Positions 7,777 through 14,845 of a stretch of DNA of 64,000 bases are shown piece by piece. Made by a program: the position numbers and the translations under genes. Origin of the DNA: Natrinema salsiterrestre (GTDB lineage Archaea; Halobacteriota; Halobacteria; Halobacteriales; Natrialbaceae); NCBI RefSeq assembly GCF_029502005.1, contig NZ_JAMQOT010000002.1, positions 248,001 through 312,000 on the forward strand. Direction: 5' to 3'. The notes below the pieces were generated by a model that ran no database searches, was not told the origin of the DNA, and saw nothing but the letters and a program-made list of their open reading frames with translations. How positions within the stretch are numbered: the first letter of the stretch is position 1; each line of letters opens with the position of its first letter.

Positions 7777-8706
7777 ATGAGCGAATTCGAGCAGTTCAGT
7801 CAGGTCGGCGAAGCGGACGTGACCCGTGCGATCGGACAGGAGTGGACCGAGGAGTTCATGGACTTCTCGGACTCGGACGTCATCATCGTAGGCGGTGGGC
7901 CCTCGGGACTGACGGCCGCGAAGGAACTCTCCGAGCGCGGTGTGAAAGTGATGGTCGTCGAGAAGAACAACTACCTCGGGGGCGGCTTCTGGCTCGGTGG
8001 CTTCCTGATGAACAAGGTCACGGTTCGCGACCCCGCCCAGCAGGTCCTCGACGAACTCGAGGTGGACTACAAACAGTCCCAGGACAGCGAGGGACTCTAC
8101 GTCGCGAACGGGCCCGAGGCCTGTTCAGGCCTCATCAAGGCCGCCTGCGACGCGGGCGCGAAGATGCAGAACATGACCGAGTTCACGGACATCGTCATCC
8201 GCGAGGACCACCGCGTCGGCGGCATCGTCATGAACTGGACGCCGGTCCACGCGCTGCCCCGCGAGATCACCTGCGTCGACCCGATCGCCGTCGAGGCGGA
8301 TCTGGTCATCGACGCGACCGGCCACGACGCGATGGCGGTCAAGAAGCTCGACGAGCGCGGCGTCCTCGACGCACCGGGTATTGCCGACGCCGAGGAGAAC
8401 GCGACCGGTATGGACCAGACCGATGCCGATACGTACGGCGCACCCGGCCACGACTCGCCCGGCCACGACTCCATGTGGGTCGGCAAGAGCGAGGACGCCG
8501 TCGTCGAACACACCGGTCTCGTCCACGACGGCCTCATCGCGACCGGGATGGCGACCGCCACCACCTACGGCCTGCCGCGCATGGGCCCCACCTTCGGTGC
8601 CATGCTCGTCTCCGGCAAGCGCGCCGCTCAGGTCGCCCTCGACGAACTCGAGGTCGACGCCGAGCCCGTCGAGTTGACCTCGCGGGCCGCGCCGGCCGAC
8701 GACTGA
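7777..8706 (+). CDS. thi4: Thiamine thiazole synthase (Thi4 family)
   Basis: 309 residues. A Rossmann FAD/NAD-binding motif (VGGGPSG, residues 38-44) is followed by the Thi4 signatures [36 protein letters not shown] and the C-terminal [15 protein letters not shown]. The enzyme makes the ADP-thiazole half of thiamine from NAD and glycine. Cys166 in REITCVDPI aligns with the cysteine that donates sulfur in yeast THI4 and in the Haloferax protein, whereas sulfide-dependent methanogen enzymes have histidine there. This one is therefore probably the single-turnover, self-sacrificing type (known for the family; not shown here). It is a single gene with a close TATA-like box. The putative thiamine repressor is 11.5 kb away. 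Confidence 0.93.
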
Positions 8707-10079: not shown

Positions 10080-10334
10080 TTAAAACCAATCTATAATATA
10101 CAAATAGGAATACTGGAAAATTTGCATGTAGAATATTGTTAATGAGATTGCAATACCTGCTTCTGCTAGTGAATAAATTAGATTCGGTTCATAAACTGAA
10201 ATAAATATATCTACAATTGTCATGACTGCATAAGCAACAGCACCTCCTGTAATTCCCCCTGTTGCAATGAATAGAAAAGCCCCTATAGCACTCTCGCTCG
10301 ATTCTTCCTTTCCGTTAGTGTCCTCTTCCCCCAT
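10080..10334 (-). CDS. Small two-helix membrane protein (paralogue of 10419-10640)
   Basis: 84 residues: a polar N-terminus rich in Glu, Ser and Asn, then two hydrophobic helices (about 18-45 and 53-80) joined by a short SVYEPN turn, with an aromatic C-terminus. The first 45 residues align closely with the upstream neighbour (TNxKxESxESAI, AFLF, GxTGxAVxYA), so the two arose by tandem duplication. I do not recognise the family. It lies downstream of the exported protein gene on the same strand, separated from its paralogue by 84 nt of AT-rich DNA. Position, size and topology would suit an immunity protein for a membrane-active toxin, but that is inference; a holin-like or regulatory membrane peptide is equally possible. 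Confidence 0.6.
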   Translation of the reverse strand: MGEEDTNGKEESSESAIGAFLFIATGGITGGAVAYAVMTIVDIFISVYEPNLIYSLAEAGIAISLTIFYMQIFQYSYLYIIDWF

Positions 10335-10418: not shown

Positions 10419-10640
10419 TCAGAGGAGAATAGATTTGTAAGCATTATAGAATATAGACATATAAAACGTGATCATAAATATTACTATAACTGCCTCTATC
10501 ACTGAGGAGTGGACGTTAAACAATTCTGTAATTGCATATGTAACAGCACTTCCAGTAAGCCCTGCCGTTCCCATAAATAAAAAAGCTATTATTGCACTTT
10601 CGTTCGATTCGTTCTTTTCATTAGTGCTCATCTCTCTCAT
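10419..10640 (-). CDS. Small two-helix membrane protein (paralogue of 10080-10334)
   Basis: 73 residues from the ATG at 10640, or 70 from the in-frame ATG at 10631, which aligns better with the paralogue downstream. The polar head STNEKNESNESAI is followed by two hydrophobic helices with a small GTAGLTGSAVTYA motif in the first. The family is unknown to me. The gene begins 70 nt after the end of the exported-protein gene on the same strand, and the three genes could form one transcription unit. Codon use is AT-rich, unlike the host core, which points to transfer. Duplication of such a short gene suggests a dose or specificity function, as seen for immunity proteins, but nothing here proves it. 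Confidence 0.6.
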   Translation of the reverse strand: MREMSTNEKNESNESAIIAFLFMGTAGLTGSAVTYAITELFNVHSSVIEAVIVIFMITFYMSIFYNAYKSILL

Positions 10641-10710: not shown

Positions 10711-11028
10711 TTAAAATGGGTTCGGTATGTTTATGTCGAGGTCACCAGCATTGTCAACGAACCATTCGACGAGTTCTCGGGAGGTGTTGATCGGAGCTCC
10801 TGGTAACGCTGCCTCCCCAACTGCTGTCATAATCGTATCTTGGTCTCTCATGTGGCCAGGGTGGTAGCTGAATGACCCGATGTCCTCCGATTCATCAAGG
10901 TAGTGCCCATTGCCGAAGCTTCGCATAGCGGGCGCACAGGTTTCGAACCTCCAAGCACCTGCACAAACATCAGTGTCTTGGAGACCAAATGTGAGATACT
11001 TCGAATCTTTTGCATGGTCCCACATCAC
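10711..11028 (-). CDS. C-terminal part of the frameshifted exported protein
   Basis: This frame starts formally with GTG at 11028 but is better read as the continuation of 11034-11789. If one base is added near 11040, the hydrophobic segment runs on without a break from VAAAVGLAAVQLL into GAVAGVMWDHAKDSKY. The 105 residues contain two cysteines (DTDVCAGAWRFETCAPAM), a Tyr/His-rich SFSYHPGHM stretch and end in DINIPNPF. I know no match. No ribosome-binding site or promoter is visible for an independent start, and such a Gly/Ala half-helix would be an unusual N-terminus. The joined product would be about 357 residues. Confidence 0.6.
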   Translation of the reverse strand: MMWDHAKDSKYLTFGLQDTDVCAGAWRFETCAPAMRSFGNGHYLDESEDIGSFSYHPGHMRDQDTIMTAVGEAALPGAPINTSRELVEWFVDNAGDLDINIPNPF

Positions 11029-11033
11029 GCCTG

Positions 11034-11789
11034 CTACGGCTCCAATAACTGCACGGCCGCCAGACCTACCGCAGCTGCTACACCTGCGCCTGGTCCCGTA
11101 ATTGATGCTGCTGCGGCACTCAAGCCTGCGCCGAGTAGACTACCTAGGGCTGCGGTGAACGCAGCATTTGAAATTAAGTCATCCATAAGATCTGTCCATT
11201 CGACACCGATCCCAAACTGCCAATGAGTCGGAGCTTCCCAGAAATCAGCCTCACAATCTTCCTCTAGGTCGTTCATATACCATTCGGCACGCACGATGTA
11301 ATCTTCGGCCTCAGTAGGAAGGTTATGAATCACTCCTTCCCATCCGCCATGATCCAGAGTGTCAACACCATCTTCATTGAGTTTCCGAATCACCTCTTTC
11401 ACCTTTTCTGGATCACTTCTCTTCAGGAGCGAAGCATCGTCTGCTTCTGCGGTTTGGGCCCCAACAGTTGGCTCTGCCGCCGGAGTCAACTCTCCTTTGA
11501 GTTTGCCTTGCGTCGATTGGACTCCTGCCTCTGAAGTTTCGATCTCGGAAACAAACGCTGCTTCCTCTCCAGTATCAGTGTCTTCACAAACAGAAAGGAC
11601 AGCGGTCTTCCCATCGAGTTCAACAGTTTCGACTGTCAGATCAAGATTGCCTTCATCTTGATCGTAATAGTTTGCCTCTGTTTCGTCTCCATTAGCACCA
11701 TCAGCAAGTGCTGTGCCTGGGATAGTCAGAGATGCAGTTCCAATGCCGATACCACGAATCCATTTCCGTCTGCTATGGTTATCAACCAT
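11034..11789 (-). CDS. Tat-exported protein with Gly/Ala hydrophobic core (halocin-like candidate), truncated by frameshift
   Basis: 251 residues ending at TAG 11034. The N-terminus is a Tat signal (SRRKWIRGIGIGTASL, then a likely cut after TALA near residue 29). Next come an acidic beta-rich region with one cysteine (LSVCEDTDTG), a helical charged region (DPEKVKEVIRKLNEDG), another cysteine (EEDCEADFW), and a long Gly/Ala hydrophobic region starting about residue 203, which is cut off by the stop. The missing rest is in the next frame at 10711-11028. Halocin H4 is known as a Tat-exported protein of about 359 residues with a central hydrophobic core; the joined product here would have similar size and plan. 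I claim resemblance of architecture, not of sequence. Confidence 0.65.
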   Translation of the reverse strand: MVDNHSRRKWIRGIGIGTASLTIPGTALADGANGDETEANYYDQDEGNLDLTVETVELDGKTAVLSVCEDTDTGEEAAFVSEIETSEAGVQSTQGKLKGELTPAAEPTVGAQTAEADDASLLKRSDPEKVKEVIRKLNEDGVDTLDHGGWEGVIHNLPTEAEDYIVRAEWYMNDLEEDCEADFWEAPTHWQFGIGVEWTDLMDDLISNAAFTAALGSLLGAGLSAAAASITGPGAGVAAAVGLAAVQLLEP

Positions 11790-12199
11790 TGCGATTGTTT
11801 ATTTCACCTTAACAAAAAAGAATATTTTGATTTGATTGATAAACAATAATTAAATGTATAAGCCCAATAGAAACCCCGAAACCCATATAATAGTTAAGGG
11901 GACGCCCAATTTTTAAATTTACTTGGATTTTGAGACAGTATTTTTCAGTTTCATTCTCAAGACCGAACCATCGCGATCAAAAAACTCTGACTCGTCGTGC
12001 CGATCCTTACTGTCGACGACGCTGTCAACGCCTACCTCGGAGAAGTCAATCACGGGCCGAATCAGTAGTTGCCGACAGAAAGCGACTAAATCCAACCGAT
12101 AGTGTAATTTCTGTCCAATATATATCCGGTTGTAATGACGACACACCGAACGGACCGGACGCGCCGTCGGCCGTCGGGACTGGGGGGAGACGAAAACGA
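11790..12199. other. Right edge of the island, no convincing gene
   Basis: The first 140 nt are AT-rich and include the promoter region of the minus-strand exported-protein gene. From about 11930 the composition rises. A minus-strand open frame at 11919-12146 encodes 75 residues with no recognisable domain and no clear start signal; I treat it as decayed or chance. An AT box (ATATATAT) near 12118-12125 and GGGGGGAGA at 12182-12190 precede the ATG at 12200; the latter could be a ribosome-binding site for the ATPase gene. Confidence 0.45.
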
Positions 12200-14845
12200 A
12201 TGATTCCGAATACCGTCGAGATCGACCGGATGGTACCGGCAGCGGGAGCGATCAAACACTCGCTCGAGTCCTACGCGACGGAGGCGGTCGGACCGGACGC
12301 GGAGCTCACGAGGCTCCACCGCGTTCTCTACCCTGTGTTCCGGGTCGAATACCGGTACGAAGAGGAGAGTCGGCTCCCGTGGGGAGACGAGACGGCCCGC
12401 GGCGTGACGCTGCTCGACGGGCTCTGGGCCGACAATCACGCCGCGCTACAGCAGTACCGATCGGGAACCGACTCGCTCGAGCCCGTATCGCTGGACGCGT
12501 ACGATCTGGGGCGGGATCGGCCGGGACTGGGCCGGACCGTGCTGCTCGATTTTCAGGTTCCGACGCAGCGAGCGCGCCGGTTGCTCCCGGAGCGGCTCGC
12601 GGACGTGGTCGAATCCCACCGGTTCGACGACCCGGCGTCGATCACGTCGTCGTACGCCGAGGAACTGGTCGACACGTTCGGGCTGCCGTCGGATCTCGAT
12701 CCCGCGGCGTTCGAGGGCATCGCGGACGTGATGCGGCTCTATCTGCCGTTCTGGGTCGGTGAAGTGTATCGGCCCGACGACCGAGATCTCATCGGTGTCG
12801 TGCGAGATCCGGAAGACACGCGCGACGACGGCGGCTCGTCCCACGAGTGGCTCTCCGCGTTTTTCCGCGCGGACAAGGGACGTCTCGCCCGGTACGCGCA
12901 CACGTCGATTCGGCAGCCGACCGCTCCGTCGGTGACCGGCGATTCCGGGTCCGACTCTAGCGATAGCACCGTTTCGGACGGACACACCGGCGAGGCCGCG
13001 GACGGACACGACGGAGACACCGCGGGCGGACGCGCCGACGACGGGTCCGATGCAGCAGAGACGGCGGACGACCGGACGACCGCCACCGATGGAACCGATG
13101 ATCACGGCGAACCGCACTCCGAACCAGTCCAGCCCGAGACCGCGGAGCTCGACGCCGAGACGCTGGTGGACCCGACACCGGACCGATGTTTCGCCGACAT
13201 CGGCGGCATGGCCGACCTCAAGGAGACAGTACGACGGACCGTCATCGGTCCGGTCGAACGGCCCGACCAGTTCCGGGAGTACGGGCTCGACCCCGTCTCC
13301 GGCGTCTTGCTCCACGGACCGCCCGGCTGTGGCAAGACCTACGTGGCCGGTGCGCTGGCCGGCGAGCTCGACTATTCGTTCCTCGAGGTGACCCCTGCCG
13401 ACCTCTCGAGCAAGTACATGGGGAAACCCGCCGAAAACGTCCAGGACGTCTTCGCCATCGCCGAGGCGAACCGGCCGTGCGTGCTCTTTCTGGACGAGAT
13501 CGACGCCATCGCGAGCGCCCGGGAGGACCAGTCGAGCACGAGCGAACGGGGAATGGTCAACCAGCTCCTGACCGAGCTCGAGGCCGTTTCGGACGGCGTA
13601 TTGGTGCTCGCGGCGACGAACCTGCTCGAGGACGTCGACGACGCGATTCTGCGGACGGGGCGGTTCGACGAGCGGATCGAGGTGCCGCCGCCGGACGCGG
13701 CCGCTCGCGAGGAGATCCTCGAGATTCATCTCGAGGAACGACCGGTCGTCGACGGTCTCGCGCTCGAGTCGGTCGTCGACCGCACCGCGGGATACGCGGC
13801 GAGCGACCTCGAGTACATCGCGACGGACGCGGCGCGCCGGGCCCTTCGGGACGACGAGCGCATCGATTCCGAACACCTGCTCGCCGCCGTCGAGGCCGTC
13901 GACTCGAGCGTGCCGGACTGGGCCGGCGGGGCGCTGGAGGAGGGGAAGACGATCACCCAGCCCGACGGCGTCGATCTGAGCGCCCGATCGCTGGTCACCC
14001 CGACGGTCGACCGCGGGTTCGACGACGTCGGCGGAATGGACGACCTGAAAGAGCGGTTGCACGAGACGGTGATCGATCCCCTCGAGAACGCGGATCGGTA
14101 CGCCGAGTACGGACTGGGCGTGACGAGCGGGGTCCTGCTACACGGCCCGCCGGGCTGCGGGAAGACGCACGTCGCCGGTGCGTTCGCCGGCGAACTGGAC
14201 TACTCCTTCCTCGAAGTGACCCCGGCGGACCTGACGAGCAAGTGGATGGGCAAACCCGCGCGGAACGTCGCCGATCTCTTCGAGATCGCGCGCCAGAACG
14301 CGCCCTGCGTGGTCTTTCTCGACGAGATCGACGGCATCGCCGGTGCGCGAACCGGCGGCGGGAACGCCAGTCAGCGCCAGCTGGTCAATCAGTTGCTCAC
14401 CGAACTCGAGTCACTCGGGGACGAAGCGGTCGTGGTCGTCGCAGCCACGAACCGCATCAGCGATATCGACGACGCCGTCTCGCGGTCCGGCCGCTTCGAC
14501 GAGCGGATCGAGGTGCCGCCGCCGGACGCGACCGCGCGCAGGGAAATCCTTCGGGTTCACCTCGCGGATCGGCCGGTCGCCACCGATATCACCTGGGAAA
14601 CCGTCGTCGAATACACCGACGGATACGCGGCCAGCGATCTGGCCCTGCTGGCCGACAACGGGGCCCGGCGGGCGATGCGGGCGGGCGATCGCGTCCGCGA
14701 GCGACACCTCCTCGCGGCTGTCTCGGAGACGGACTCGAGCCTCGGCTCGGACAGCGCCGAGACGGCCGGCGACATCGACACAGATAGTCGGCGGGCCGAC
14801 GACACTGGAGGTCGGCGGGACGACGATACCTGGTATCACCAGTGA
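12200..14845 (+). CDS. Cdc48-like double AAA+ ATPase with unrecognised N-terminal domain
   Basis: 881 residues from the ATG at 12200. Residues 1-240 form an unrecognised domain with aromatic-rich strands (LYPVFRVEYRYEE, YLPFWVGEVYRP). Residues 245-330 are a disordered acidic, Ser/Asp/Thr-rich linker. Two AAA modules follow: Walker A GPPGCGKT at 373-380 and 649-656, Walker B VLFLDEID at 428-435 and VVFLDEID at 704-711, and the second region of homology with TGRFDERIE and SGRFDERIE. Both sites look active. The modules resemble each other more than Cdc48 D1 and D2 usually do (shared FLEVTPADL, MGKPA), suggesting internal duplication. The family remodels or unfolds proteins, but Cdc48 has a double-psi barrel N-domain, which is not seen here. 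The frame is open upstream, so an earlier start is possible. Confidence 0.85.
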   Translation: MIPNTVEIDRMVPAAGAIKHSLESYATEAVGPDAELTRLHRVLYPVFRVEYRYEEESRLPWGDETARGVTLLDGLWADNHAALQQYRSGTDSLEPVSLDAYDLGRDRPGLGRTVLLDFQVPTQRARRLLPERLADVVESHRFDDPASITSSYAEELVDTFGLPSDLDPAAFEGIADVMRLYLPFWVGEVYRPDDRDLIGVVRDPEDTRDDGGSSHEWLSAFFRADKGRLARYAHTSIRQPTAPSVTGDSGSDSSDSTVSDGHTGEAADGHDGDTAGGRADDGSDAAETADDRTTATDGTDDHGEPHSEPVQPETAELDAETLVDPTPDRCFADIGGMADLKETVRRTVIGPVERPDQFREYGLDPVSGVLLHGPPGCGKTYVAGALAGELDYSFLEVTPADLSSKYMGKPAENVQDVFAIAEANRPCVLFLDEIDAIASAREDQSSTSERGMVNQLLTELEAVSDGVLVLAATNLLEDVDDAILRTGRFDERIEVPPPDAAAREEILEIHLEERPVVDGLALESVVDRTAGYAASDLEYIATDAARRALRDDERIDSEHLLAAVEAVDSSVPDWAGGALEEGKTITQPDGVDLSARSLVTPTVDRGFDDVGGMDDLKERLHETVIDPLENADRYAEYGLGVTSGVLLHGPPGCGKTHVAGAFAGELDYSFLEVTPADLTSKWMGKPARNVADLFEIARQNAPCVVFLDEIDGIAGARTGGGNASQRQLVNQLLTELESLGDEAVVVVAATNRISDIDDAVSRSGRFDERIEVPPPDATARREILRVHLADRPVATDITWETVVEYTDGYAASDLALLADNGARRAMRAGDRVRERHLLAAVSETDSSLGSDSAETAGDIDTDSRRADDTGGRRDDDTWYHQ

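Follow-up and report, generated by a model that had tools for sequence, protein, structure and literature searches.

The gene and the parts of its product

We analysed a 64,000-nucleotide stretch of the Natrinema salsiterrestre genome (contig NZ_JAMQOT010000002.1, positions 248,001 to 312,000), hereafter the window, which contains a gene for a double-AAA ATPase. Its product of 881 residues consists, in this order, of an N-domain (residues 1-236), a low-complexity linker, two AAA modules (D1 and D2), and a C-terminal tail of 45 residues (Table 1). An upstream TTG at 11930 is still within the same open frame; homologous N-termini favour the ATG at 12200. Homologous loci (denoted L) and genomes (denoted G) were compared in a detailed set made of 14 loci of the same family (the window and 13 fetched ones) together with 20 loci drawn from the 34 matches in other families; 32 of the 34 members of this set were full-length. 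Genes were called with a simple in-house caller and not taken from annotation.

Analysis of the two modules revealed that both possess the elements of classical AAA proteins, namely Walker A, Walker B, sensor 1 (AATN) and the paired Arg fingers of the second region of homology, and PF00004 matched with an E-value of 6.6e-78. The retention of Walker A and B in both modules had been claimed in a preliminary description of the window and is confirmed here by the positions of the motifs. The same description had called the modules unusually alike, as if duplicated. D1 and D2 are identical at 148 of 233 positions (64%), and the 16 residues before each module are also part of the repeat. For comparison, the two modules of each of five Cdc48-like proteins encoded by this genome are 49-56% identical, so this view was right. 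The linker spans residue 237 to about residue 312 (approximately 75 residues), differs in length among homologues, and has a low-complexity sequence with 25% Asp/Glu. Between the window gene and its nearest relative, that of G069, the ratio of nonsynonymous to synonymous substitution rates (dN/dS) was 0.18 for the N-domain, 0.08 for D1, 0.18 for D2, and 0.54 for the linker. The N-domain and both modules are therefore under purifying selection, and the linker is weakly constrained.

The AlphaFold2 model of the N-domain listed in Table 1 was built from 34 sequences; another, built from 14 sequences, had a predicted local distance difference test score (pLDDT) of 80 and a predicted TM-score (pTM) of 0.80. 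The predicted domain has two halves, each made of a helix, a long beta-hairpin and a helix, with further helices joining them. Similar motifs were found in both halves. In the first, RVLYPVFR, the residues R41, V42, and P45 are invariant in the 34 sequences and Y44 is conserved in at least 90% of them; in the second, RLYLPFW, L182 and P183 are invariant, and R179, Y181, F184, and W185 are each conserved in at least 90%. Compared by hhalign, the two halves show a weak in-register alignment (P 0.034, against 0.21 for the reversed control).

No Pfam or NCBIfam model matched the window N-domain up to an E-value of 1, and a Pfam scan of all 34 members gave scattered weak matches, the best of which was DUF5848 (3 of 34 members, 1.5e-4). 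A sequence search against solved chains gave no confident match (best E 0.41). Foldseek against the PDB gave best E-values of 0.22 for the 14-sequence model and 0.07 for the 34-sequence model (top three TM-scores of the latter, 0.13-0.17), and VIA-align 2 gave best Z values of 3.2 and 3.9, respectively, neither search yielding a confident fold. In a viral structure library the best match, a tentative lead, was a DnaJ-like protein (E 0.03, TMq 0.38). Failure to match a listed fold does not make the fold new, and it may exist among predicted cellular structures.

The Cdc48 N-domain has a double-psi barrel/4Vr fold. A relationship of the window N-domain to that of Cdc48 is not supported at profile level: hhalign of the 34 N-domains against the five Cdc48 N-domains of the same genome gave a probability of 0.04% over 16 columns. 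The preliminary description had stated that the N-domain does not match that of Cdc48, and had named in advance, as the result that would refute it, a confident match between residues 1-240 and that domain. Such a match was looked for by profile, sequence and fold and none was found, so the statement holds, within the limit that fold searches cannot exclude a fold.

Table 1. Positions of the double-AAA ATPase gene, its parts, and its upstream neighbour in the window.
Feature	Residues	Positions	Strand	Basis or remark
Double-AAA ATPase gene		12200..14845	+	Open reading frame (ORF) and translation, 881 amino acids plus stop; homologous N-termini align from ATG
N-domain	1-236	12200..12907	+	Model mbf3f4b05c903; pLDDT 86, pTM 0.85
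RVLYPVFR motif, first half	41-48	12320..12343	+	Conservation in 34 sequences
RLYLPFW motif, second half	179-185	12734..12754	+	Conservation in 34 sequences
Low-complexity linker		12908..13129	+	Asp/Glu content; dN/dS
Pre-D1 segment	311-326	13130..13177	+	Pairwise alignment with pre-D2 segment; conserved in homologues
AAA module D1	327-560	13178..13879	+	PF00004, two stretches; motifs
D1 Walker A	373-380	13316-13339	+
D1 pore loop KYMG		within 13409-13426	+
D1 Walker B FLDEID	430-435	13487-13504	+
D1 Arg fingers R..GR	485-490	13652-13669	+
Pre-D2 segment	587-602	13958..14005	+	Repeats pre-D1 segment
AAA module D2	603-836	14006..14707	+	PF00004, two stretches; motifs
D2 Walker A	649-656	14144-14167	+
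D2 pore loop KWMG		within 14237-14254	+
D2 Walker B FLDEID	706-711	14315-14332	+
D2 Arg fingers R..GR	762-767	14483-14500	+
C-terminal tail ending TWYHQ		14708..14842	+	Relatives: WYR, WYE or WYD ends (HbYX-like)
Thi4 (thiazole synthase)		7777..8706	+	Upstream neighbour; TIGR00292 221.5 bits against cut-off 148.3; active-site Cys motif kept

Relationship of the modules to other AAA proteins

Module trees were built with 16 of the 30 two-module proteins (32 modules); L074 and L075, which had no matched second Walker A, were left out of the D1/D2 counts, where 30 of the 32 full-length members were used. The first tree (46 modules) included PAN and the D1 and D2 modules of Cdc48 from the same genome, the Cdc48s of L030 among them. 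The second (65 modules) included three of the genome's own Cdc48s, Cdc48 from another eight archaeal genomes, two PANs, two FtsH, and four further plasmid-encoded AAA proteins. The Cdc48s of L030 were absent from it, as were the second modules of L036 and L129, which were missed by the motif filter.

In the 46-module tree, D1 and D2 of the family fell together with the first module of L036, apart from Cdc48 D1, Cdc48 D2, and PAN (support 100/99). In the 65-module tree, the side containing FtsH, Cdc48, and PAN was split with support of 100/98 from the family and two bacterial AAA proteins, and the bacterial proteins were the outer members of the family's clade. A double-AAA protein of Rhizobium grouped with Cdc48. 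The first modules of L036 and of the Haloarcula plasmid protein L129 fell inside the family clade, which suggests that this AAA core is used with other N-termini. A test of whether the family's 32 modules form one clade did not reject it (p-AU 0.077); the best tree places L036 and L129 inside. The comparison with Cdc48 and PAN, which the preliminary description had proposed, thus places both modules outside Cdc48, PAN, and FtsH. Judged from these trees, the tandem behind the double ring seems to have originated independently of the Cdc48 tandem, through duplication of a single module on another branch of the AAA proteins.

That the protein is instead an ordinary Cdc48, a paralogue whose N-domain has diverged past recognition, is improbable. 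The identical tandem layout would fit this: like Cdc48/p97/VAT (TIGR01243), the window protein has an N-domain followed by two AAA modules with Walker A/B and Arg fingers, TIGR01243 aligns over both modules, and five other Cdc48-like proteins are encoded in the genome. However, the alignment reached 374.7 bits against a cut-off of 802.65, which four of those five pass and the fifth, at 740.2, does not. The best single model was that of PAN, itself below its cut-off. D1 did not group with Cdc48 D1, nor D2 with Cdc48 D2, in either tree, both being found in the one shared clade with bacterial outer members. The N-domain profile is unlike that of Cdc48, and the window protein differs from Cdc48 also by its long low-complexity linker.

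Among the NCBIfam models, the one for PAN (PRK03992/TIGR01242) scored highest (420.2 bits; cut-off 500), and some members of the family share HbYX-like ends with it. The window protein differs in having two modules rather than one, and the model covers the AAA modules only. The two bacterial proteins whose AAA modules branch beside the family, Streptomyces WP_327301825.1 and Haliscomenobacter WP_013769014.1, share the GPPGCGKT Walker A. Unlike the window protein, they have a single AAA module, other N-terminal parts and long branches, and no similarity to the window N-domain was found in either. In the Haliscomenobacter protein a protein kinase domain is fused to the AAA module; the gene for this fusion lies on a plasmid (L134 1086-2900) between Hsp70-family and TerB-family genes, with BrxL beyond.

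L036 of the same genome (663 amino acids) and the Haloarcula plasmid protein WP_324761081.1 (L129) are also double-AAA proteins with first modules in the family clade, but they lack this N-domain, which has one match in the window's own genome and none in L129. The L036 gene (434-2422 of the locus, minus strand; G000:C11 ~815-817 kb) encodes a hydrophobic, apparently membrane-spanning N-terminus. A single-AAA protein is encoded by L037 (493-1929, minus strand; G000:C11 ~708-710 kb). Its best models were those of anti-phage IteA/IetA (193.8 bits against 510; PADLOC E 1.9e-64), and its branch in the trees is very long.

If the two modules of a gene evolved separately, D1 and D2 of the same gene should be no closer than D1 and D2 of different genes. 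In nine genes of the window's own clade, the D1-D2 identity was 63.0% within genes and 62.4% across genes (p 0.037); in 14 genes of another family, it was 70.0% and 68.3%, respectively (0 of 10,000 permutations), and at third codon positions of this 14-gene set 63.7% and 59.2%, a signal to which shared codon bias may add. In L072, a tract of 90 nt extending from sensor 1 through the Arg fingers is identical between D1 and D2, while the longest cross-gene tract in the set is 47 nt. Against exchange, the longest tracts of L015, L062, and L081 are 17, 21, and 22 nt, and the cross-gene means are 21 and 24 nt. The sequences of the relatives thus contain signs of exchange between D1 and D2.

Taken together, the domain and tree analyses show that these double-AAA proteins are a real and conserved subfamily, whose N-domain is unrecognised and whose tandem apparently stems from a duplication of its own. 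The preliminary description had suggested that the protein may define a distinct unfoldase class. This view is supported within limits: the proteins form a subfamily of the classical AAA proteins, matches were confined here to Halobacteria, and the first modules of L036 and L129 lie inside the clade without the N-domain. No study of the family was found in the literature; in a broader search, none of the matches listed was haloarchaeal, although relevant work may have been published.

Distribution and gene neighbourhood

With a single sequence as query, the N-domain was found at an E-value of 0.001 in 14 of 125 genomes and 9 of 29 genera of the window's family, and in 2 of 29 genomes of its genus. 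With a 14-row alignment, a search of the class found it in 46 of 391 genomes, belonging to 15 of 86 genera and three families. Of 392 genomes searched across the phylum, 8 had a match at an E-value of 0.01. Seven belong to the window's order; the remaining one, G570 (19 bits, positions 99-173), was judged spurious. Viral contigs, searched with one sequence as query, and plasmids gave no match to the N-domain; with the whole protein as query, 329 plasmid records matched, none over more than 80% of the protein's length.

Incomplete copies were also found. The sole match in a single-sequence contig scan was Halopiger djelfimassiliensis (G012), in which a 340-amino-acid ORF (L016 9292-10314) has the N-domain and linker and the AAA modules are absent. 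G104 contains a broken family gene with one AAA module left (L105 3854-5579, equivalent to L019 from 9289), and recombination between the D1 and D2 copies may have left this single module.

In all 20 loci fetched outside the window's family, the gene follows that for 4-phosphopantoate-beta-alanine ligase (PPS) of the coenzyme A pathway. PPS is directly upstream in 19 of them, with a spacing of −4 to +2 nt in 13, and one gene lies between in L078. Of the 32 full-length loci, 21 have PPS adjacent or one gene away and 18 have a pantoate-kinase-like gene upstream. PPS was identified by the L065 copy (314.2 bits against 300 for NF041123), and the other copies by clustering; the pantoate-kinase-like copy of L065 scored 171.6 bits, below the cut-off of 380. 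Thi4 was found within 8 kb on the same strand in 24 of the 32 full-length loci, upstream in one lineage and downstream in others. The window belongs to the lineage with Thi4 upstream of the gene and PPS elsewhere.

The cysteine motif of Thi4 is kept in all 45 Thi4 rows compared (44 distinct genes), and no difference was seen between Thi4 ends from loci with and without the AAA gene. We also inspected 19 further stretches around Thi4 within the family, 17 of them from genomes without the AAA gene, one from G008, which has the gene elsewhere, and one from G104. A trace of the AAA gene near Thi4 was found only in G104. PPS lies near Thi4 in 9 of the 17 stretches from genomes without the AAA gene, those 9 having been chosen for that. 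Since PPS and Thi4 are thus linked without the AAA gene, the neighbourhood may be an inherited position. The position of the gene is probably old, and it is either functional or simply inherited.

The neighbourhood suggests a client link with the adjacent genes. Thi4 is a single-use enzyme that presumably spends its active-site cysteine during catalysis. According to a passage of PMC4215014, the Thi4 of the haloarchaeon H. volcanii needs its active-site cysteine, and clearance of spent Thi4 by sampylation and proteasomes is suggested there. The specific scenario of an unfoldase beside its client, pulling apart spent Thi4, or PPS, and then feeding the proteasome, has in our view a low probability. 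Against it, Thi4 is present in 122 and PPS in 124 of the 125 genomes of the family and the AAA gene in only 14, and four loci of the family (L023, L024, L026, and L027) have neither Thi4 nor PPS in the 20 kb fetched. The Thi4 ends, alike with and without the AAA gene, and the linkage of PPS and Thi4 in genomes that lack it also speak against the scenario.

In the window the gene adjoins an accessory island, as the preliminary description had stated. It is not part of the island, because the gene is present at other loci of the family that have no relatives of the island proteins; these were found in only 1 of the 13 fetched loci of the family (L015). That the gene product is an anti-virus, IetA-like AAA protein belonging to this island is highly improbable. 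The PADLOC models of IetA do match the modules (best E 1.2e-82), and the patchy distribution and the adjoining island would agree with it. However, the NCBIfam model of the anti-phage ATPase (NF042959) gave 275.9 bits against a cut-off of 510, and these matches lie on AAA modules common to many AAA proteins. The AAA module is related to that of IetA and the gene context differs. The recurring neighbours identified in relatives are metabolic, although not all neighbours were screened for defence genes, and the N-domain was not found in the viral contigs and plasmids searched.

Elsewhere in the window, two ORFs of 251 and 104 amino acids on the minus strand (10711-11789) match a single 363-amino-acid ORF of G069 (L015) with 87% and 80% identity. 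The G069 ORF has a twin-arginine-like N-terminus. No Pfam or NCBIfam match was found. The two window ORFs probably represent a secreted-protein gene split in the window, perhaps resembling a halocin precursor. Two small, mutually similar, hydrophobic proteins are encoded beside it on the minus strand (10080-10334 and 10419-10640), with a relative in the G069 locus; our guess is that they may be immunity proteins.

Proposed mechanism and alternatives

We consider it likely that the product is a classical AAA unfoldase of type II (two modules) from haloarchaea, which works like Cdc48/VAT but is not Cdc48. Its subunits would assemble into a hexamer with two rings stacked on each other. The N-domains, on flexible linkers, would sit on top of the D1 ring, where they would bind a client or client complex and in this way choose the substrate. 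ATP hydrolysis in both rings would move the aromatic pore loops, with Tyr (Y406) in D1 and Trp (W682) in D2, so that the client would be threaded and unfolded. It would then be released or, possibly, handed to the 20S proteasome. In PMC5511170 the aromatic-X-Gly loop is described as the element that does the threading, and archaeal Cdc48 is said to have it in D1 as well. KYMG in D1 and KWMG in D2 were found in all nine intact main-clade proteins of the window's family, so that each ring has an aromatic-X-Gly loop, and this anatomy fits a threading unfoldase.

Several observations weigh against this reading. The hexamer and the threading would follow from what is known of the AAA family at large. 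The D2 modules of L025-L027 and L073 have DD instead of DE in Walker B and have lost one or both Arg-finger residues; two active rings are therefore not universal, and the second ring of these proteins may be mainly structural, as far as the motifs indicate. The longest D1-D2 tract of the window gene is 36 nt and the cross-gene maximum in its clade is 38, so recent exchange in this gene is not shown. The gene is also dispensable: 27 of the 29 genomes of the genus gave no match, G012 has only the N-domain and linker, and the copy in G104 is broken. Finally, the HbYX motif, which consists of the last three residues (hydrophobic-Tyr-any) and must be at the very C-terminus according to a passage of PMC11475706, is not present in the window protein. 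This ends in WYHQ, one residue too long, and the G069 protein also has one residue more. The exact motif occurs in only 5 of the 32 full-length members; with 27 lacking it, hand-off to the proteasome is not a family trait.

The tails bear also on the alternative that the protein is a dedicated proteasomal cap, which would chiefly feed the 20S proteasome through its C-terminal tail as PAN does. The ends WYR, WYE, or WYD were found in 5 of the 9 intact main-clade proteins, L017 of G009 being of the WYR type, and WYHH and WYHQ in two more. In L018 the frame past the stop continues to an RWYD end, and the tail therefore looks old in the main clade. A missing motif does not exclude docking, since Cpa interacts with the proteasome and HbYX is absent from it, as given in a passage of PMC6017811. 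Yet no WY tail was found in L021 in the frames read just downstream, and L025-L027 of the window's family, like the other families, have other C-terminal ends, which, with the few exact motifs, makes this alternative doubtful.

A tentative but reasonable alternative is an assembly or disassembly factor, that is, a segregase or chaperone acting on a complex with no degradation involved. The many ends without HbYX, the degenerate D2 of some members and the operon-like place after PPS outside the family would agree with such a role. On the other hand, both rings have aromatic pore loops in the main clades, as suits full threading, and no tie to a particular complex was found.

Archaeal tandem-ring AAA proteins are readily mistaken for Cdc48, and the plasmid relatives are annotated as 'CDC48 family AAA ATPase' or 'AAA family ATPase'. 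The family offers a way to examine the evolution of double rings and the contribution of an N-domain in organisms amenable to genetics. Should the neighbouring enzymes be its clients, it would also bear on the clearance of a single-use enzyme by cells.

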